A stretch of 64,000 bases of DNA from Chlorella sorokiniana (lineage: Eukaryota; Chlorophyta; Trebouxiophyceae; Chlorellales; Chlorellaceae): contig CP084612.1 of assembly GCA_025917655.1 (NCBI GenBank), positions 1,736,001 to 1,800,000 on the forward strand, written 5' to 3'. A program made the position numbers and the translations under genes. The notes under the pieces are model-generated. The model saw only the letters and a program-made list of their open reading frames with translations. It had not been told where the DNA came from and made no database searches. Positions 29,190-42,650 of the stretch are shown in pieces (position 1 is the first letter of the stretch; each line of letters begins with the position of its first letter).

Positions 29190-32100
29190 CTACCTACCTG
29201 CCAGGCCGCATGCACACGGCACCGACCATCGCAGACACAATGCAGGGGCTTGACAAATAAGGTTCAGGTCACTGTTCTGGGTTCTTGGCTGGGCAGGCCA
29301 GCTTGGCGTGGGAGGGTCAGTTTGGGCGGCAGCGCGCTGCTCAAGCCTGGTTGCCGGGAGCGCCTCCTTGGGGAGCTTGCAATGGAACACGTCTGTCGGT
29401 AGGGCAGAGGCAGCAGCGCGCACGTGGCTGCCGAGCATGCAAGCACGGCGTGGCAGGAGGCGGCATCGGCACCAAGCAGGGCGCTCGGGGCTGGCTGGCA
29501 AGAGCCAGCATCCGGCCCCGGTCTGGTGCTGCCAGCGGTCCACAGCTCAGCAGAGCGCATCCTACAAGGCGGGGCAAGCAGCATGCGGCAGACTGGCGGC
29601 AGCGGCACTCACGAGGTGGCAGCGCCTGCGCGATGTCCACGCCAAAGCACCTGCAACACGAGGGGCGGGCGAGGCAGCCATGAAGGGCAGCGGCCACACC
29701 ACGGCATGCTGCGCACGGCATGCTTGCCCATGCGTGGCACACAGGGCGTTGCAGGCGTGGCAGCCACACGCCGTTCCCAGCCAGGCCCAGCTGGCAGCTT
29801 GCGGCAGGCTCACAGGGGCTTGGGGCCCGCCTCGTCGCCCTCCACGAAGCACGGCGCGCACTCCTTGTGCACAGCGCACTCCGCTGCGGCAAAGGCCTCG
29901 CACGGCACCCAGGGCTGGGCCCCGCGGGCGCCCTCCTCCTCCTCCTCGCCCTCCTCCTCCTGGCTGGAAGCAGCGCCTTGCACAGCGGCGCCGCGCTTCA
30001 CCTTGCACTCAAACACGACTGCGGGGAAGCGTAGGGAGCATGAGGGTGTGGAAGGAGGGCGGTGACTTGCGCAGCGGATCAAATAGCACACTGGGCAGGC
30101 CTTTTCGGACATGCCCAAGCTGCAGAGAGGGGCCGCATACAGCCACTCACAGGGCGGCAGCTTGGCGGCGACGGAGGGGCGGAAGCAGAGGTCCACGCCG
30201 CTGGCCTTTTCAGTGCACAGGGAGCAGCGGTCGTCGTTCTTCTTGCACTGGGTGGGGCCGTAGGACTCGCAGACGTCCCAGGGGGCGGGCTGGGGCTTGT
30301 TGCTGCCCTGCTCGCCTGCCAGCTCAGCCACCAGCTCAGCAACAAGGGCGGGCTCGGCGGCGGCAGCGCCGCGCAGCAGCAGCGTCGGGCCCGCCTCGGG
30401 CTTGGGCAGCTTGCAGTGGAAGATGGAGGCAGGCAGGAACTTGGCCACCGTAGGGGAGAAGCACCTGCAGTGGCAGGCAGCAAGAGGGAGCGCATGACTC
30501 TCGATTGACAAATAAAACATATAGATGTGCCTCCGGTGCCGCTGGTGCGGCCTGCCAGCCCTTCTGAGACACAGGCTGGGCTGGCTGCTGCCAGCCACTC
30601 AACCCCAAACCTGCAACGCCCGCCCCGCTCACATCGGCTTGGCCGGCTTGCCCTCCTTGCCCTCCACAGTGCAGCGTGCACACACTGCGCGGTGGGCGGC
30701 GCACTCGGTCTCGTTGAACGACTCGCAGGGCAGCCACTTGGGCTTTGTGCCCAAGTCAACAGCCTGCTGCGCCTCGGTGCCCTCCTCGACAGCGCCGGCT
30801 TCGGCGTCAACAGGAGCGGCGTCCTTGCCGGCGTCGCCCTTGGGCAGCTTGCAGTGGAAGATGAAGGGCGGCAGCTTCTTGGCGATCTCGAGGCCGAAGC
30901 ACCTGCAGGCAGACGCCGCAGTTGTTGGGGGCCAAAGGGAGGCGTCTGTAGACGACCGAGCAGCACGGGGGCGACTCTTGGGCCAGCACGTTGACAGGGG
31001 GTGCGGGGGGTGCTCGCTGCTCAGCAAGCGGCAGGTGGCGGCTCACATGGGCTTGGCGCCCTTCTTCTTGCCCTCCACGGTGCACAGCGCGCACTCCGTG
31101 CTGTGCGCCTTGCACTCTGTCGCGTTGAAGGCCTCGCAGGCTGTCCAGGGCTCCGGCTTCGGCTTCTTGCCAGCAGCAGCGGCACCATCCGCTGCAACCT
31201 CCCCTTCACCCCGGAGCAGTCGAAACGACTGCGGCAGGCAGCGGGTAGAGATGGGCGGTGAGTGAGGCACTGAGTGAAGTTGCTTGCTGCAGAGCTCATG
31301 CCAATGCACAGGCATGCACGGGCATGCACAGAGCAGGGAGCCAGCGGGCAGCGCAGGAGCGCAAGCAGCGTGCTCACAGGGCGGCAGCTTGGCGGCGACG
31401 GAGGGGCGGAAGCAGAGGTCCACGCCGCTGGCCTTTTCAGTGCACAGGGAGCAGCGGTCGTCGTTCTTCTTGCACTGGGCGGGGCCGTAGGACTCGCAGA
31501 CCTCCCAGGGGGCGGGCTGGGGCTTGTCCTCAGGCTCGGCAGACAGAGGGCCGGAGCGGCGTCCGCCTACTTGTGCAGCCTTGACGTCGGAACACTTGAA
31601 GATGACTGCATGGTGGGTGAGGTGGGAACGGAAGCTGCGTGCTCACGTCTTGCCCCCTGCCTGCAGCTGCGGCGGCACGCGGCACGCTGGGGCGGCATGG
31701 GCAGCAGCGTGCTCAATTTCGCTGCTGTCACTCACAGGGCGGCAGCTTGGCGGCGACGGAGGGGCGGAAGCAGAGGTCCACGCCGCTGGCCTTGTCAGTG
31801 CACAGGGAGCAGCGGTCGTCATTCTTCTTGCACTGGGCGGGACCGTAGGACTCGCAGACGTCCCAGGGGGTGGGCTGGGGCTTCTTGTCAACCGTGACAG
31901 TGCGAATCACCGGGGGGCTCTGGCTCTGGGATGCCAGAACATTCAAATATGACTGCATATGCGGAGGAATGAAGCAGGAGACGGAGGGGATGGGTGAATG
32001 CTGCAGCAAGAGGTGCATGGCGGCGGCGCGCAAGGCGTCCCGCCCGATGCTGCCCGTGTTTGTGAGCTATCCTTCCAGGCCCCGGCAGGTAACACGACTC

Positions 32101-32325
32101 ACAAGGAGGGATGACCTCGGCGATCTCATGCTCAAGGCAAACTTTCACGTCCGGCAGGAACTGGTTTTGGCACAGGGAGCACTGGTCCGACCGAGCTTCG
32201 CACTCCGTGGCGCTGAGCGCTTCGCAGGCGTTGGAGAACTTGGGTTTCATCACATCGATACGGAAGGGGAACGCGGCAGAGCAGCATAGCGGCAGAGCCG
32301 CCAGCAGAAGGATGGCCGCCCTCAT
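29190..32325 (-). CDS. Secreted protein of tandem PSI-like Cys-rich modules
   Basis: Signal peptide MRAAILLLAALPLCCSA at 32325, then about seven copies of one module. Each reads roughly [VI]FxC, a variable acidic or Ala-rich spacer, CE.(6).EC, (6)C..C, (9-15)C and ends LPP. Examples are CESYGPAQCKK, CSLCTDKASGVDLC and VAAKLPP. The spacing C-x8-C-x6-C-x2-C resembles PSI (plexin/semaphorin/integrin) or related extracellular domains. Intron junctions checked between modules are phase 1 (after LPP), so exons can be duplicated without frame change. Three exons are almost identical (30140-30300, 31378-31535, 31737-31892). One-base frame changes appear near 31203 and 31224. The last exon begins VFHCKLPKE; the exact stop (29190 or about 29264) is uncertain. 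Role is unknown; extracellular ligand or metal binding is possible. Confidence 0.7.
31378..31892 (-). repeat. Near-identical duplicated exons in the PSI-like gene
   Basis: A block of about 155 bp at 31378-31535 recurs at 31737-31892 and again at 30140-30300, all on the minus strand. By eye the copies differ at only a few positions each, while the introns and the acidic spacers between them differ strongly. Identity limited to exons suggests recent duplication or gene conversion. Confidence 0.8.
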
Positions 32326-32681
32326 CAGGCTCACGCCGACAGGGAGGGTAGCGGAGGAAACGGCGCTGCACGGTATCGATGGAAGGTCAGCAAACCCGCG
32401 CGGAAGGGTTTGCAAGGGGAGAGATGAATGGGGGTAGGGCACGGGGCGGCGTGACATGGACTTTGGGGCGGTCGGCTGAAAAAATCGGCGACTCAAATCG
32501 AGTTTATGCAAGAGAAGCTAATTATAGAGAAGGTGCTCGGGATTGGCTGGCAGGATTTGGGTCGCGGGGGAGGGTTGACAGGGTACAGCTGGCGAAGGCC
32601 TACTTGTCCAGCTCCAGCTCCCTTTCTGCAGCTCGGGGATAAAATGAAGAGGTAGGCAGATGCAGGATGCAAAATTCAATG
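32326..32681. promoter_or_regulatory. Upstream region of the PSI-like gene
   Basis: Lies between the start codon at 32325 and the 3' end of tRNA-Leu. It must include the promoter of the minus-strand gene. No clear core motif was seen. A run of four A at 32671-32674 is the tRNA terminator on the minus strand. Confidence 0.4.
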
Positions 32682-32799
32682 TGACAGCGGTAGGGTTCGA
32701 ACCTACGCCCCCTTTCGAGGAGAGGAAACCACAAGCTTGGTGTGGAAGGATGCAAACAATCCTTGAGTCCTCCGCCTTAGACCACTCGGCCACGCTGCC
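32682..32799 (-). tRNA. tRNA-Leu(CAA) with intron
   Basis: On the minus strand, acceptor GGCAGCG (32799-32793) pairs with CGCTGTC near the 3' end, with one G-U pair. The D-arm begins GCCGAGTGGTCTAAGGC, the A-box type of class II tRNAs. The anticodon stem GAGGA is followed by the loop CTCAAG with anticodon CAA at 32765-32763. An intron of about 32 nt follows position 37, then TCCTC closes the stem. The long variable arm (TCCTCGAAAGGGGG) supports Leu. The T-arm is GTAGG-TTCGAAC-CCTAC. A TTTT terminator follows within 12 nt. CCA is not encoded, as expected for a nuclear gene. Confidence 0.9.
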
Positions 32800-33605: not shown

Positions 33606-35190
33606 TAGCAGCAGCAAAGGTCGCATGGGTCTCCAATTAGAGAGTATCAGTACATCAGTGGCGCCACTTGCCCTCCGCTGTGCCCGATCCCCGGCGGCTG
33701 CAGATGCCTGCATCCCCACGCACCCTAAGGCAATGCAAGCCGCGATGCGCCGCCGGCCCAGCACCTCGCAAGCAATCAGCGGATTTGCACGGCCATTGTG
33801 CCTAGCTGGGTGCAACACTGCGACGACTGCACCAGGGGGTGTAGGGGGCGCGGGATGAGCGAAGGGCGGGGAGGGGGAAGATGGGCGTCACATGCTGGGG
33901 CAACTGCCCACCGCCGCAAGCGCTAACGAATCTGGGCGGCACCAGGCGATCGGCGTTCTGCACCAGCTGCCCTGCAGGCATTTCTGACACGCGTGTGGCC
34001 CAGTAGTGCTCCCGAGGGACGTGGTGTGAAGCTTTGCGCTCCCCCGCAACGGTGAGGCAGGCACGGCTGCACACCAGGTGTTGCACGAGCACTACTGGGC
34101 CGCCTGCGTATCAGCCATGCATACAGGGCAGCTGAAGCAAAACGCCGACCGCTTGGTGCTGCCCTTATCCGCTTAGGTGCGGCAGCGCCAGCAGCTGTCA
34201 ACAGCTGCGCCCGATTGAGGCAAGCACTGCAGGCCAGCAACCTTGCCGCCTCCCCCATGCTGCCGTGCAGCAGCCCTGCCCTCGGCCGCTTCCTGGCATT
34301 GCCGCCGGTGTGGGTGGGGTCCTGGGGGCGTTCAGCGGGGAGCGGCTGCCGGGCAGGCACTGGCTGCGGGGCAGGCACTGGCTGCTCAGCAGGGCCGGCT
34401 GCCCGCCGCTCCCCGTTGCCCAGCACGCCGCCCGGCAGCGCGAGGGCCGAGGACAAGGCAAGCAGGGGGCCTGCTCGTCGGCCATGTACCGCAGCAGCTG
34501 CCCTGCCACGTGGGCCTCCGCCTCGCCTGCAGGCAGCAAGGAAGGTGAGCGGCGTCATGCCGCTGCAGGCAGGGCGAGGGGCGGCAGCCGGGCTCGGTGC
34601 GCAGCGGCTGCCCCAGTCAAGCTATGAGCGTAAAGTGAGTCAACGAGGGTTCGCACTTGGTGCCAAGGCGCCCAGACCAGCAGAGCCGATCACCCAGTCC
34701 CGCTGTGCCGTGGCCAGCAAACTTGCCAGACTGCGGGCGGCCCCACCTGGATGACCACGGATCCATGCGATAAGATGGCGGCCGCCATGCCTGAAAGGCC
34801 ACCTTCCGAAAGGCGAGCAGGGGTGGGGGATGGGGGGCCAGGCTGCGGGCTGTGGGAGCACATCTGAGCGAGGCGCCAAATCGGTAGCCGAGCAGCGAGC
34901 AAGACGGCAGCGAGCCGAGGCACCCGCCATCGCGCGCCAGGCTGGAGGCGCAAGTCCGCTGCACAAGTTTGCTGAGAAGAGCCTGCTGTGAGCGGCTGGA
35001 TGCCTTGTGGTTTTGACAGTGGCGCGATGCACTTGTTTGGACCGGGAGCATAGCCAATGTGTCAACAGGCAGCCATGCCTTGTCAACAGCGGCTTTATGG
35101 CCGCCACGGCCCAGCATCCACGTTTTTTGCCCACCTGGCCGTGCCGCTAACATCCTGGCACCTTGGTGTGGTCGCTGAAGGTCAGAAACC
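33606..35190. other. Gene-poor stretch in the insertion zone
   Basis: About 1.6 kb with open frames on both strands but none I can assign. A minus-strand frame across 33923-34558 is long (211 codons) and Arg/Ala/Pro-rich, as chance frames are at this GC content. A ~15-bp inverted repeat (CAGTAGTGCTC near 34001 and GAGCACTACTG near 34088) is present. No domain, RNA gene or element was recognised. Confidence 0.35.
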
Positions 35191-35191
35191 C

Positions 35192-35310
35192 AAAAAAATT
35201 CATAAGACCGTTGCGACTACCGACTGCGCCAACGGAGCAAATTTTTGATGCTCCGTACGGGGCTCGAACCCGTGACCTACGGCTTGCTCATGCCATAAGA
35301 ACTTCAAATC
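35192..35310 (-). tRNA. Circularly permuted tRNA-Ile(UAU) gene
   Basis: On the minus strand the 3' half comes first: AAGCCGT (anticodon stem, from 35285), AGGTC, T-arm ACGGG-TTCGAGC-CCCGT, acceptor ACGGAGC and discriminator A at 35249. After a 10-nt AT-rich spacer (35248-35239) the 5' half follows. It has acceptor GCTCCGT (35238-35232), TG, D-arm GCGCAGTCGGTAGTCGC, then AACGGT and loop CTTATG with anticodon TAT at 35204-35202. A T7 run (35198-35192) then ends it. Joined in tRNA order, the acceptor stem has 7 perfect pairs, the T stem 5, and the anticodon stem ACGGT/GCCGT 4 plus one U-G. Leader CATGAG (35293-35288) can pair with CTTATG, next to a 3-nt CAA bulge, as in a relaxed bulge-helix-bulge splice site. 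Position 37 (A or G) depends on the exact cut. The D stem has an extra T. Confidence 0.85.
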
Positions 35311-35406
35311 CGGTTCATTTGGAGTTCGGGCAGACTTTCCTCCCGGTTCTTAATTTTTATCGGTACAGTATCGTCTAGGTTGTTTTGACGCCCCCAAAAA
35401 ACCCCT

Positions 35407-35497
35407 GTGTCGTTGGCCGCGACGTTAAATAAGGAGCTGGACCGTCTGCGACGCCTCCACGAGGTCGCGGGTTCGAATCCCGGCCGAGATACTAGCT
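35407..35497 (+). ncRNA. tRNA-derived sequence with B-box (pseudo-tRNA or SINE head)
   Basis: GCGGG-TTCGAAT-CCCGG at about 35466-35482 is a good T-arm with an RNA polymerase III B-box (GGTTCGAATCC). It is preceded by AGGTC, a normal variable loop. Upstream sequence (TTGGCCGCGACGTTAAAT) resembles a degraded A-box. A full cloverleaf cannot be folded: no ATCTCGG is present to pair with the 3' CCGAGAT. I therefore read it as a tRNA relic or the head of a tRNA-derived SINE. The body would be 35498-35650 and the tail the ACACAACAACAACAAC stretch near 35667. Confidence 0.4.
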
Positions 35498-35688
35498 GGG
35501 AAGGCCGGTACTTTCCGGTGGGCCCGATTGCCACAGAGTTGGCCTGTGCCCCTTCTTCGGGATCGAGCGTTCCTGGCGGTGCTTGCAATACGGAGCTGCT
35601 TGGCTTGCTTGCTTTCCCTATCAGGCTGGATCTAGAGGTTCGTTACCGAACCGCCACGTCCTGTAACACACAACAACAACAACCCCTG

Positions 35689-35689
<1 letters not shown>

Positions 35690-35726
<37 letters not shown>

Positions 35727-35733
35727 CTTTTTT
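35690..35733. repeat. T37 homopolymer run
   Basis: Thirty-seven T (35690-35726), one C, then six T. This is by far the longest homopolymer in a GC-rich window. It could be a minus-strand poly(A) tail of a retrocopy, or a strong pol III terminator after the tRNA-like unit. It also marks the left edge of the LINE. Confidence 0.8.
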
Positions 35734-37679
35734 GCCGAATTCGCCGACAGTCCCCGGACCGCCCCGCACCGCCCCTACTACCTTCCTGAAGGCCCCATGG
35801 GCCCCCAATCGTCTGGTTTGCGCCCCCGGGGGCTTCCTCGGGGGCGACTGGCCAACCTGCAGCGCGGGGCCCTCCGCCCGGCGCCCTTCGGGGCGATTGG
35901 GCTGCAGGTGCTCCCCGCATCGGGTTGCATGGCTCGGCGCCCCGAGCGCGGCCTCGCGATCTCGATCCCCAAGTCCGACGCGTTCAGGTACCCGACACCC
36001 CTCACCTCAGTCACATGGCCCTCCGGGTTGTCGTGCCCGACTACCTCAGCCACGGGGAAGCCCTGGAGCGCCTGAGGGCAGCCGCCGAGCCGACAGTCCT
36101 GGGCCTCCTGGGTAACACCGCCCAGCCCAGCTCCTCCTCCGCACCAGAGGCCGTCATTTCCCTGCCACGCACCATCTCAGACAACGGGACAGCCACGGCG
36201 CACATCTTCGTGCCGACGTCTGTCTTCACCCAGCTCCTGGGCCAGCCCGGCTCTGGCGCGCAGCTCAGCGTGCAGCTGCTGGCTCCCTGGCCGCCTGCAT
36301 CCCCCGCCACCCTGCTCGATTTCAGCCGCCTCCAGTTTCAGACTGCCAGCCTGCGTGGCGTCCCGGGCGCTCTGCCTGGCGCGGTGGCTGCCCAAGCCAT
36401 CCGTGCCGCCTACCCTTGCGTGGTCAGCGCAGCGCGCAAGCAGCTGCCCGGCGGCCTGCTCTCTGATCTTTGCCATCACCATCTCCCTGGACCGGGACGA
36501 CCTCCCTCGCACCTTCCCCATCGAGGTGGACGGACGGGGGAGCACACCGTCGTCGTCGACCGCGACCCTTTGCGCCAGCGGCTGGCTGGCGCACCTGGCG
36601 GTGCTCCCGCTGCCCCCCCCCCCTGGCGCAGCTGGCGGTGCCCCCGCAGCAGCCACTCCTCTCCAGGCGCAGCTGGCGCTGCTGCCCCCGCCCCCACCTG
36701 GCGCGGCAGGCGCTGCCCCCGCTGCCCCCACCTCCCCTCCTGGCGCAGCCGGCGGTACCGCCGCTGCCCTCCCCTTCCCGCCGTGGCGGCAGCGGCTGCC
36801 TCCCCCGGGGCTGCTGTCGTGGACGGTGCAGCTGCTGACTCAGCCGGCACTGGCGACGAGCGTGTGCGTGGTGGCGTGGGCCGCGCTCTGCGCATCGGCA
36901 GTGGGAGGGCTGGCGCGCGGCGCGCTGCCATCCGGGCTGGCCCCATCATCTCCAAGCCCCGCCGTGTCTTGCCTGGCCAGTCAGCCGCTGGCCCCGGCCC
37001 CGGCCCCAGCCCCCGCCCCAGCCCCAATCGCTTTGCGGTGCTGGTGGGCGGGGAGTCCATGGATGCCGACGTGGAGGAGCTGGCGGAGGCAGCCGTTGCC
37101 GCCGCCGCTGCAGCTGCGCCTGCCGCGGGTGCTGCCTGCAGCGCTGCGCCCCCTCTGTGCGACGGCCCCCACCCCCGCGGAGCTGCAGCCTGAGGACGCC
37201 ATGGACGCCATTGCTGAGGAGGCGCCGGCTGCTGGCGAGGCCCAGCCCCTCAGCGCAGCGCCTGCCCAGCCGCAGCCCTCCGCCTCGACGGCCGCCAGCT
37301 CCGACGGGGGCAGCCTGGGCAGCGGCGGCAGCGGGCCGTTTGGGGCGCGTGGCTTTGACGCCATGGTCGGCCGCCTCGCCGAGGAGCGCCAGCAGGAGGT
37401 GGCGGCGGCCGAGCTGGCCACCATCCCCGACAGCCCCAGCGGCGGCGGCGATCTGCAGGGCGGCCTCGCCGGGCGGGGACGCAGGCGCCCCTCTGGCTGC
37501 CCGGCGGCAGCTGCTGTGGACGAGGCCGCCGCCAGCCCCCCTCCGACCCCCCCTCCCTCTCCCTCTCCCTCGCCTGGCGCTGACGGCCCCCTGCGGGCCC
37601 GCGCCGCTCCCTGCGCATCGCCGCTGCCGCCGAGCGGCGCGGCCACACCGCGTGATGCCGCCGGGGACGAGGCCCTCGC

Positions 37680-40600
37680 GGCCCTCGCTGCGCGTCGGCA
37701 GCGTCAACCTGCGGGGCCTGGCTGTGCCGGGGCGGCTGCACGCTGCCGCCGCCCGCTGGCGCGCCGCCCGCTACGACGTCGTGTTCCTGCAGGAGCACCA
37801 CCTCACCTCCCACCTCCACGACCGAGCCACCCTCGCCGCCCTGTCGTCGCTCGGGTGGAAGGCCTACGTCGCCTTCTCCACGCCTGGGGCCTCCGGCTGC
37901 CCCCGGGCGGGACTGCAGTGCTCATCCGCCGCGCCCTCCTTGCCAGCGGGGAGCTGTCTGCGCCCGCGGCCCAGCTCTGCCCCCGCGGCCGGTTCACCGC
38001 CGTCTCAGCCTCCTGGTCAGGCCACCGCCTCCACCTCTGCAGCGTCTACCTGCCCAATGAGCCCAGCGCCCGCTGCACCTACATCCAGTCCAGCCTCGGA
38101 CCGCTGGCAGCGGCCGCCGCTGCTGCCTCCAGGCAGCTGGTGTGGGGCGGCGACTTCAATTTCACACCTGATCCCCACCTCGACCGCCGCTACCTGAGCC
38201 GCACTCCCCTGCGGCGGTCCACCTGCCGCGGCGACGCATCCTCCCTCTCCGCCTTCTCCCTCTTCCTCCCCAGCCTGGTGGACGTCTGGCGCGGGCGCCA
38301 CCCCCACCGGCGCGCCTTCACCTACTCCAACGGCGCCGTGTTTGGCCGCCTGGACCGCATCTACGTCTCCCGCCCGCTTGCGCCCTACGCCACCAGCGCC
38401 ACCGTAGTGCGCGCCCCGTCGCCGACCACAACCCCGTCTCCCTCTCCATCCTGGGCACCCGGCCCCCTGGCGTCGGCCGCCAGCGCCGCCGCCTCCGCCT
38501 CGGCTTCCTCTCCTGCCCCGCTCTGTCCTCGCAGCTGCGGGACTGGCTGGCAGCCTTGGCGCCCCCGGAGGACCCTGCTGCCTTCATCCAGTGGTGGCCC
38601 AGGTTCCAGCGCGCCCTCTACATCTTCTGCCGCCGCCTGCACCGCGCCAGCCGTGAGCTGGGCCCCGCGCCGCCACCGCCCTTGCTGCCCTGGAGGCAGC
38701 TGCTCAGCGGTGGGAGGCTGGGGACGACGGCGCCCTGCCAGAGCTTGCCGCAGCGCACGAGGCGTGGCGGCGGGCAGCCCACTCGGCTGGCATCGCCGAG
38801 GCCACCCAGTTGCGCCGCTACACCTGGCTGCATTGCGGCGAGCGGCCCAACCCCTCCACCTCCCGGCAGCTGCAGCCTGCCCGGCATGTTACCACCATCC
38901 CTGCGCTGCGAGGTTCCGGCGGCGCCTTGCACACCGGCCCCTCAGCCGCTGCGGTGGCGGTGCAGGCAGCCGCGGCCATTTCTGCAGCGCCCACCACCTC
39001 TGCCGCCGCCCAGGATGAGGTCAGCGCAGCGGTGCGCAGTGGCCGCCGCCTCACCGAGCTGCAGGCAGCTTCCCTGGGCGAGGCTGCCTTCTCTGCCGAG
39101 GAGGTGCTGCGCGCCATGCGGCGCGTCAAGCCGGGCAAGTCGCCTGGCCTGGACGGCGTCCCCCGACCTGTACCGCCACTTCCGCACCGCCTTTGCCCCC
39201 TCTTCTCCCGCCTCTTCACCGCCATTGCCTCCACCGGCCAGCTGCCGCGCTCATTCCATGAGGGGCTCATCACCTTCCTCTTCAAGGCTGGCGACCGCGC
39301 TGACCCCGCCTGCTACCGCCCCATCACCCTGCTCGGCGCCGACTATCGCCTCTATGCGCTTGTGCTGGCCCGCCGCCCTGGGCCCTGCCTCGCCTCCGTC
39401 ATCGACCCAGAGCAGGTTGCCTTTGTGCCCGGCCGCCGCATCGGCGACAACATCATGGCCCTGCAGCTCCTCCCCACCTCCTCCGCCGTGCGGGCCGCTG
39501 GGCGCTGGCGGCCTTCTGCGACTTCCGCAAGGCCTACGACACCATCGACCGCTCCTTCCTCTTCCGCATCATGGCGGACCTGGGCGTCGGCGAGGGCTTC
39601 CTCTCCCTGGTCCGCCCCCTCCTCCACGGCACCCGCGCCCGAGCCCTGGTCAGCGGCTTCATCTCCTCTCCCCGCCGACTTCCTGGCAGGCGTGCGCCAG
39701 GGCTGCCCGCTGGCCCCGCTGCTCTACCTGTTTGTCGCCCAGGCCCTGCTTGCCTTCCTGCGCCAGCGTGGCGTTGGCCTGCGCGACCTCCTGCCCGGCT
39801 CCCCCTCACCACCACCACCGGCTGCTATGCTGACGACGCGCACATCCTGTTGGACTCTCCAGCCCAGCTGCCCGCCTTCCTGGGCGCCATGGACACCTTT
39901 GGCGACGCCACCGGGCAGCGCCTCAACCCCTCCAAAACGCAGCTGCTCCCCTCGGCGCCGTGCCCGCCGACGTGGAAGCGGCGCTGCCACCTCCCGCGGC
40001 GCGCCGCGGCCTGCGCGTCGTCTCCTCCGTCACCGCCCTCGGCATCCCCTTTGCCAACGGCGAGCCGCCCGCAGCCGCCACCGCCGCCACCTGGGCCTCC
40101 CTGCTGGCCCGGGTGGAGACCGTGTACGCCCGCATCGCCCGCCTTGGCCTCTCCGTCTTCGGGCGGGCCTTTGCCAGCGCCCGGCTATGGCGTGCCGAAG
40201 CTCCTCTATCACTCCGAGTTCCTGGGCCACCCCCGCCGCCATCGCTGACCGCCTTGCACGCATCACGGCGCGCCTTGTGGATCGCAGCCAGGGCCCCTCC
40301 GCCACGCAGCGGCGCTTTGCCGGCCTGCACCGCGACGTCCTGCCTGGGCGGCCTGCTGACGGCGGCTTTGGGGCGCTGCCCTGGCTCCTCCACATCTCGG
40401 CCCGCCATGCCAGCTGGGCGGCCCGCCTCCTCACCTCCCCTCCGCCTCCCCTCACACACCTCGCAGGGCGGCGGCCCCTCCCCCAGACCCGCCACCTCCC
40501 TTGCCTCCCCTTCCGCCGCTCCCGGCCGCCGCCCCCGCCCCCCGCCTCCCGACGCACCGGCCCCTCCGGAGGAGCGGCTCCCGCCCTGGGTGGCGCTGGC

Positions 40601-41940
40601 GTATGAGCTGCTTGACGGCCTGCCGCCAGCAGGCCTGCTGTTCTGGCCCATCCAGCAGCCCCTGCCGGCGTCGCTCGCCCACCTGCCGCCGCCCCTCCTC
40701 CGCCTGCGGGCAGCCCTCGCCTCCTTGCCACCCCCAGCCGACCTGGCGCCCCAGCAGCTCCGGCCCGGCCCCTGGTGCCTCTCCCTGCCCCTGTGGGGCA
40801 ACCCCTTCCTGGTCTCAGCAGCCCACCCCGCCGGCCTGGACCACGCCTTCACCGACTTCCTGGCAGCAGGGGTGGGCACCCTCGGGCGCGCGCTCGCTGT
40901 TGCGCGGGCTGTGGCGGCAGCGCCCACGCAGGCGGCTTACGTCAGCCTGGTGCGCCACCCGCTCTTGGCCTCCTCCCCGGCGTTTGCACAGCGCCACGTG
41001 GCGGCGGAGCGCCTCGCAGCCCTGCTGGCGGCGGTCCCCGCTGCTTGGGTAGCGGCAGCGCGCGCCGCCGCTGCTGCCGCGGCCCCACCGCAGCCGCCCT
41101 CCCCCGCCCACGTCCTCCACACCCTCCTCCTCCCTCGCCTGGCCTGGCGGCTGCCCGCCGGCCGGCCCGTCAGCTTCGCGCGCGGCTCACCGTGCGCTCA
41201 GCCACCGCGCTGCTGGCGGCGCCAGCTGCCCAACAGCGTGCCAGCCTCCACCTTGCCCCCTTTGCGGCGCTCGCCACCGCCGGCAGCCCCCTTCCCCTTC
41301 CCACCTCCCCGAGCTCCAGGCTGCCATGCGCCGGCTGTGGCACCTGCCCTGGGAGAATGGGCGGAAGGAGGTGTTCTGGCGGCTGGCCTACGATGCCCTC
41401 CCCACCGCAGCCCGCCTGCACCGCGACCAGCCGTGCGAGTGCGGCGCAGGCCCCCGCCCAGACCGCCACCACCACTTCTGGGCATGCCCGGTGGCGCAGG
41501 CCGTTGTCGCCGTTGTCCAGGCGGCGCTGGCGGCCGCGCGCCCCCTGCAGAGCAGCCTGCCCCCTTTTGCCGGCCAACATCTGGCTGGCCCGCGCCCGCC
41601 CGGCCTTGACGCCGGGGTGTGGGGGTGGTCTGCCTGGCGGCTGTCGAAGCCATGGACCGTGGCCGGCGTTCTCTGGCTGCGGCGGCGCTGCGGCGCCGGA
41701 GCGAGCAGCAGCAGCAGCAGCAGCAGCAGCCCCGCCTCGTCCAGCGCTCACTTGACGGCTTCCTGCGGCAGCCCCGGCCTCCTGAGCCCCCTGGCGCGGC
41801 GGCTTCGGCCGCCGCCAGCCGGGAGCCCCCGCCCCCCCGCGAGCCGGCGGCGCCCCGGCGCCGCTGCCTCAGCCCCCCACAGGCCCCCTCCCAGCCGCCT
41901 GCCGGTCGGCGGTCGGTGCGTTTTGGTCTCTCCTTGCTGA
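37680..41940 (+). CDS. LINE endonuclease-reverse transcriptase region
   Basis: The endonuclease shows VGSVNLRGLA at the start, YDVVFLQEHHL, WGGDFNFTPDPHLDR (catalytic Asp/Asn) and AFTYSNGAVFGRLDRIYV. The reverse transcriptase follows with VKPGKSPGLDGV, FLFKAGDRADPACYRPITLL, AFVPGRRIGDNI, AFCDFRKAYDTIDRSFLF (first Asp), VRQGCPLAPLLYLFVAQAL and YADDAHILL (the YxDD box; reconstructed frame). Near 41430 a CECGAGPRPDRHHHFWACP motif matches the zf-RVT type C-C-H-C knuckle seen after RT in plant LINEs. About 8 frame changes are visible between domains. No RNase H domain was recognised. Product, if made, nicks DNA and copies the element RNA at the target. Confidence 0.85.
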
Positions 41941-42650
41941 TTTTCATGCCCTGGACCTGGCGCCTGCCGCTTGGCTTGGCCGCATCCCCACCACACACCC
42001 CTTCTTTTTCACAGACAGTGGCCGCCTGCAGTTGCGGCCTCCCCCGCTCCCTGATGCCTAGCGCCTGATCCCAGGGCCTGTGCCCCGCCCGCCCTGCTGG
42101 GCCTGCGGGGCGGCCCTGCCCCTCGTCCCCGTCTCGTTCCTTTACAGTTGGTCCCCTCTGCTGCTCTCCTGCCTGACCCGCTGCATGACGCTTCAGTGTC
42201 CCCTGCCTGCCCTGTGTCGTTTCCGCCCGCCCGTCTGGCCGCCTCCCGGCTACTGTGCCGGGCGGGCTGCGTCGCATGGCTGTCAGCGGCCTGCTGCTGC
42301 CTTGCTGCGGGGCCCCACCTTCCCCCTTTCCATTCCCATTCTGACCCGTGCTGGCGGCCCTGCGGTTGCGTGCGATGGTGCCCACATGCGTAACCGGCGC
42401 CCTGCCTCCCCGCCTTCCTGTGTCTGCTGCTTCGCTGGCGGCGCTTTGGGTGTGCTCCCAGGCGCCCTCCGCTCCCCTGCCGCCCTCTGCGCCCGATCCC
42501 CGGCATGCGCCGGTGCTTACGCCCTGCCCGCCCGCCCGCCTGCGATGCTTAGATGTTGTACCGGAGCTAGTGGGATGCTCTGCTGTGTGTCCCCAGCGCG
42601 TTACCGCGCCTGGTCTCTGTAACAGTCAAGTCAAGTCAAGTCAATCTGCG

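Follow-up and report, generated by a model that had tools for sequence, protein, structure and literature searches.

A probable circularly permuted tRNA-Ile(UAU) gene in Chlorella sorokiniana and the retroelements upstream of permuted and ordinary tRNA genes

Described permuted tRNA genes and the Chlorella locus

Circularly permuted tRNA genes are known from red algae, prasinophytes, nucleomorphs and one archaeon, and since 2025 also from the green alga Auxenochlorella (PMC3978253; PMC12633428). In prasinophytes (Ostreococcus, Micromonas) and chlorarachniophyte nucleomorphs they are of type II and resemble the locus described here in having the 3' half first, a junction mostly at 37/38, a short spacer and an hBH splice signal, and their permuted sets include Arg(TCT) and Ser(AGA), as does the set reported below (PMC3978253; PMC4494063). 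The 37/38 junction is the commonest one in other green algae according to Table 1 of Soma 2014, which lists 34 permuted genes, with neither an Ile(UAU) nor a core-chlorophyte nuclear gene among them (PMC3978253). The red alga Cyanidioschyzon merolae shares with our genome the inverted halves and a permuted Thr(CGT), and the circular RNA intermediate has been demonstrated there; its junctions lie at four positions, whereas the junction is 37/38 in six of the six well-formed permuted loci found here (PMC3978253). Its Ile(UAU) gene carries three introns, in contrast to the permuted arrangement in Chlorella (PMC9602550).

A further described case is Auxenochlorella UTEX 250-A (Craig 2025), which belongs to the same family, Chlorellaceae, and in which the halves are likewise reversed and the genes escape ordinary tRNA finders (PMC12633428; PMC12636532). 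The identities of its permuted tRNAs are given in supplementary Figure S1 (PMC12633428). The first-pass annotation proposed that an Ile(UAU) gene in a Chlorella-like genome would extend the permuted class; this holds for the amino acid, as judged by the 2014 table, and probably for the species, but not for the lineage, because permuted genes of Chlorellaceae are already in print.

The newer part, if it holds, is a retroelement footprint, while the permuted gene itself joins a known class. The available portions of the Auxenochlorella account name no link with retroelements, whereas in Chlorella such elements adjoin permuted genes (PMC12633428; PMC12636532), and the sections seen of the literature on permuted tRNAs and on retroelements at tRNA genes contain no link between retroelement insertion and permuted genes. 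A parallel exists in Dictyostelium, where the non-LTR element TRE5-A likewise inserts within a short interval ahead of tRNA genes and is thought to locate Pol III complexes; it lies about 47 bp upstream, as against 61-151 bp in Chlorella, where permuted genes bear an element too (PMC5391098). How tRNA genes with swapped internal promoter boxes are transcribed is treated as unsettled in Soma 2014 (PMC3978253). A single genome here offers permuted genes of several amino acids, ordinary genes for comparison and a decayed copy, and the retroelements may mark where initiation complexes sit.

Structure and detection of the Ile(UAU) locus

The locus lies on the minus strand of a 64,000-nucleotide stretch of the C. 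sorokiniana genome (the window), in the order leader, 3' half, 10-nt spacer, 5' half, AA and T7 (Table 1). From its sequence we consider it very probable that a working tRNA-Ile(UAU) gene of the nuclear genome is encoded here, circularly permuted and of type II (junction 37/38). Unlike in a conventional gene, the 3' half precedes the 5' half. When the halves were swapped, ARAGORN returned a 74-nt tRNA-Ile(tat), and it gave tRNA-Ile(tat) again when the 141-nt stretch was treated as a circle with introns allowed. In genomic order, ARAGORN found no tRNA at the locus, and Rfam at gathering scores reported only the tRNA-Leu(CAA) gene of Table 1 as a tRNA, as is expected of a permuted gene. The inverted halves, the 10-nt spacer, the anticodon UAU and the observation that the inverted ordering alone yields a tRNA had all been proposed beforehand and were confirmed. 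The 3' half had been placed at 35285-35249; its end at 35249 stands, and its start moves by one base to 35284, as the 37/38 junction places it.

Table 1. Positions of the permuted tRNA-Ile(UAU) gene, its neighbours in the window, and the further permuted loci (C3 to C6 are other contigs of the same genome).
Feature	Position	Strand	Basis, score or remark
Conventional tRNA-Leu(CAA), 39-nt intron; nearest ordinary tRNA gene, separate from the permuted gene	32682..32799	-	Rfam and ARAGORN
Trailer AA and T7 (T7 = 35198-35192), Pol III-type terminator	35192..35200	-	Sequence
Predicted 5' splice site	35201/35200	-	
5' half, tRNA-Ile(UAU), nt 1-37, 38 bases: acceptor GCTCCGT, D arm, anticodon 5' stem ACGGT, loop CTTATG with anticodon TAT	35201..35238	-	ARAGORN on rejoined halves and covariance model
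Intervening spacer TCAAAAATTT, 10 nt, linking nt 73 to nt 1	35239..35248	-	
3' half, tRNA-Ile(UAU), nt 38-73: A38, anticodon 3' stem GCCGT, variable loop, T arm ACGGG-TTCGAGC-CCCGT, acceptor ACGGAGC, discriminator A	35249..35284	-	ARAGORN on rejoined halves and covariance model
Predicted 3' splice site	35285/35284	-	
Leader CATGAGCA	35285..35292	-	CATGAG (35292-35287) pairs with CTTATG (nt 32-37)
TATA-like AT-rich GATAAAAATTAAG, proposed TFIIIB/TBP site	35349..35361	-	77 nt upstream of the 3' half
SINE-like element, 275 bp, tRNA-like head (A- and B-box-like) facing the permuted gene, (CAA)n tail	35409..35683	+	
Non-LTR retrotransposon (LINE)	35684..42640	+	Approximate start; truncated copies indicate the 3' end (about 42640)
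Permuted Ser(AGA)	C3		Structure scan; spacer 36 nt
Permuted Arg(UCU)	C4		70.5 bits; spacer 12 nt
Permuted Gly(UCC)	C5		54.0 bits; spacer 14 nt
Permuted Gly, decayed copy	C5:1703110-1703310		At C5:1703206; 30.4 bits
Permuted Thr(CGU), two inverted copies	C6:2288500-2293190		73.2 bits each; spacer 28 nt in both

The locus was also recovered by a covariance model trained on 17 type I nuclear tRNAs from this genome; each had been permuted artificially at 37/38 and given an N spacer, and the target was left out. The held-out model scored it at 68.7 bits (E 2.4e-19 in the window), and the next match reached 15.3 bits. A strict scan for B box, acceptor and A box matched once in the window, at the Ile locus, against none in 200 Markov-simulated windows; the tRNA patterns scanned in viral contigs gave 0 matches.

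In the rejoined halves, the acceptor (7/7) and T (5/5) stems pair completely, as does the anticodon stem (5/5, one U-G), in agreement with the first-pass annotation. The D stem pairs at three of four positions, with a C13-U22 mismatch, and G stands at 21 where A is usual (our own numbering). As anticipated, CATGAG of the leader pairs with CTTATG around the anticodon, in a helix of 6 bp with one G-U (duplex -5.3 kcal/mol) beside a 3-nt bulge CA|A (CA plus A38), which gives a splice signal of the hBH type; of a BHB motif at this junction the 3' side alone is clear, and no second bulge stands out. The T7 run after the 5' half is likewise present, preceded by AA. The longest T run of the spacer is 3, so no terminator lies between the halves. 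Just before its pairing segment, the leader contains TCTTATG, the sequence with which the 5' half ends; this 7-base match could be left over from a tandem-duplicated ancestor, of which it is only suggestive; tandem duplication is one published scenario for the origin of permuted tRNA genes (Soma 2014, PMC3978253).

Since the halves stand in reversed order, the transcript would have to be circularized and cut again before it can function. Pol III would start upstream at the TATA-like site and transcribe leader, 3' half, spacer, 5' half and trailer. The tRNA-splicing endonuclease would cleave at the two predicted splice sites, tRNA ligase would link nt 37 to nt 38 to give a circular RNA, and RNase P and tRNase Z would excise the spacer at the acceptor end, after which CCA would be added. 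These processing steps, from endonuclease cleavage and ligation to a circle to spacer removal and CCA addition, are carried over from work reviewed in Soma 2014 (PMC3978253). The precursor fold required for splicing is predicted at -28.7 kcal/mol, 6.6 higher than the predicted minimum (-35.3 kcal/mol), and the junction helix has a pairing probability of 0.12-0.15; 7 of 21 canonical mature tRNAs likewise lack a closed three-hairpin minimum fold. A B-block TFIIIC search gave one match of 20.6 bits (cut-off 22). Averaged AT profiles peak near -75 upstream of permuted genes and near -35 upstream of canonical ones, and the peak position shows no significant shift between the permuted loci and 30 canonical genes (p 0.31 with six loci, 0.20 without Thr copy b).

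Elsewhere in the window, several adjacent frames at 29810-32508 (minus strand) repeat a cysteine-rich motif like CESYGPTQCKKNDDRCSLC; they are perhaps exons of one repeat protein.

Further permuted loci and alternative readings

At least five further well-formed permuted loci were found, for Arg(UCU), Gly(UCC), Ser(AGA) and, in two copies, Thr(CGU). ARAGORN called all six joined permuted sequences with the stated anticodons. The Ser(AGA) locus scored only 16.6 bits under the permuted covariance model, probably owing to the length of its variable arm and to its spacer. Of the two Thr copies, only copy a has the TATA-like site upstream, and a decayed Gly copy without the anticodon arm lies 18 kb from the intact Gly(UCC) locus.

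These loci were identified by applying the permuted model to selected loci, by a structure scan and by inspection by eye, and the inventory is a lower bound. The pattern GGTTCGANNCC occurs at 232 places in the genome, and part of the first 100 was examined. GGTTCGARYCC (71 places), GGTTCGATCCC (9), GGTTCGATTCCD (8) and GGTTCGATTCCCB (6) were examined at all their places on C1-C13 except one in an array on C4, and for GGTTCAANYCC (129 places) a Ser gene alone was examined. Judging by their length and tRNA density, C1-C13 are probably nuclear contigs and C14-C15 organellar. A protein search made to place the alga returned four proteins with 7-9% query coverage; the one with a name comes from Parachlorella kessleri (90% identity), which points to Chlorellaceae. 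On C4, the region 2292500-2360600 contains tandem arrays with a unit of about 270 bp, each unit with a B-box-like GGTTCGATTCC; by eye, part of this unit recurs on C12 beside a zinc-knuckle-like reading frame.

A check set out in the first-pass annotation was the presence of a conventional tRNA-Ile(UAU) elsewhere, and our searches of the same genome found none. With a 131-base query of the locus, the sole match was the locus itself, in a search whose first pass may overlook repeats. When the initial 20 bases of the 5' half were searched with as many as 3 mismatches allowed, seven places matched, the Ile locus alone exactly; the other six carry 3 mismatches each, compared with 15 matches for a control, and were judged by mismatch count alone. 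An ARAGORN call of Ile(tat) at C8:1532359 was rejected as a substitute gene: its long variable arm and intron, as read from the sequence, make it a class II Leu(UAA). The permuted Ile(UAU) gene thus appears, on these searches, to be single-copy, and standard tRNA finders miss it in a chlorellacean alga.

The alternative that survives best, improbable as we judge it, is a permuted-tRNA pseudogene, which would have arisen by tandem duplication and loss and would now be untranscribed or unprocessed, with AUA read by another tRNA. The D-arm deviations of the Ile locus would agree with decay, as would the decayed or doubtful permuted copies in the genome, namely the Gly copy without an anticodon arm and Thr copy b without a TATA-like site. 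However, the acceptor, T and anticodon stems, the terminator and the splice pairing are all intact, the substitute Ile(UAU) that such a pseudogene would call for was not found in the own-genome searches, and the score of the Ile locus falls within the range of canonical genes, which were scored under a different model of their own.

In a second reading, the locus encodes a regulatory or structural RNA that resembles a tRNA in permuted order, comparable to the tRNA-like module of bacterial Y RNA. Among the Rfam models tried in genomic order, YrlA (bacterial Y RNA-like) covers the locus, aligning to 35184-35303 with 20.7 bits. The tRNA-like module of YrlA is itself in permuted order, which probably explains the alignment. 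The score is far under the gathering score of 69, the Ile locus yields a complete tRNA whose anticodon is TAT, and the sister loci bear other anticodons; we therefore regard this reading as very improbable. An artefact by which one ordinary gene with an intron was misassembled or rearranged, which the first-pass annotation had named as a possible refutation, has logical possibility alone in its favour and is hardly credible, because five other well-formed permuted loci stand on four other contigs, with spacers of 36 nt on C3, 12 nt on C4, 14 nt on C5 and 28 nt on C6.

Retroelements upstream of permuted and ordinary tRNA genes

The SINE-like element has its near edge 124 bp from the Ile 3' half, on the upstream side, and the LINE follows it. 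The LINE encodes an endonuclease domain (PF03372, 30.4 bits), and its match to reverse transcriptase (RVT_1) is below the cut-off; a protein search with the endonuclease returned 11 proteins, of which the only one with a species name is from Chlamydomonas reinhardtii (34%). The SINE head at 35409 was itself considered as a permuted or ordinary tRNA gene and rejected, as it scores 15.3 bits, has many broken pairs and is repeated elsewhere. The genome holds at least 13 matches to the SINE and at least 23 to the LINE. Further SINE copies lie upstream of canonical tRNA genes, and by their coordinates 14 of 23 LINE matches are less than 5 kb from a tRNA gene found in the genome, the Pro gene on C1 having been found by inspecting beside a LINE.

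Among 16 distinct canonical genes in 3-kb loci, which include the doubtful call Leu(GAG), 10 have an element edge no more than 160 bp upstream (61-151 bp), and in eight of these 10 the element is oriented opposite to the gene; of the remaining six, three have an edge farther off (637-884 bp) and three have none. At loci without a called tRNA, any element match within 3 kb was seen in 3 of 35 (33 distinct places), and a Gly-like 3' half is present in one of the three. Of another eight canonical genes, examined in strips 100-200 bp upstream, two showed the element. The permuted genes have an edge within 160 bp upstream in four of six cases: Ile (124 bp), Ser (103 bp), Arg (126 bp) and Gly (128 bp), the Arg element being a 60-bp remnant with 83% identity. 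Both Thr(CGU) copies lack an element in the 190-205 bp upstream that were examined; copy a has a LINE at a distance of 1.8 kb.

These data suggest that the LINE of this green alga is probably a non-LTR retrotransposon that targets tRNA genes. The presence of retroelements upstream of permuted genes suggests that Pol III complexes form there despite the swapped A and B boxes, and that they may assemble on permuted genes as on ordinary tRNA genes. We lean slightly towards a fuller proposal, in which the LINE and its SINE partner home in on Pol III initiation complexes and integrate upstream of permuted as of ordinary tRNA genes. At permuted genes they would do so about 40 bp farther from the coding start, as a longer leader is required in the permuted precursor, and the insertions would be a natural footprint of TFIIIB and Pol III at permuted genes with swapped A and B boxes. 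The median edge distance is 125 bp for permuted genes and 80.5 bp for 14 canonical genes (Mann-Whitney p 0.022), a value that is only indicative because the 14 include Arg CCG, Ala AGC, Pro and Ala CGC, added for their visible element, and omit genes without one.

The neighbourhoods of four truncated LINE copies contained an older LINE end in two cases, an ordinary Pro gene in one and neither in one. Upstream of tRNA genes, copies of the LINE and of the tRNA-headed SINE mostly stand head to head with the gene and are often 5'-truncated or stacked.
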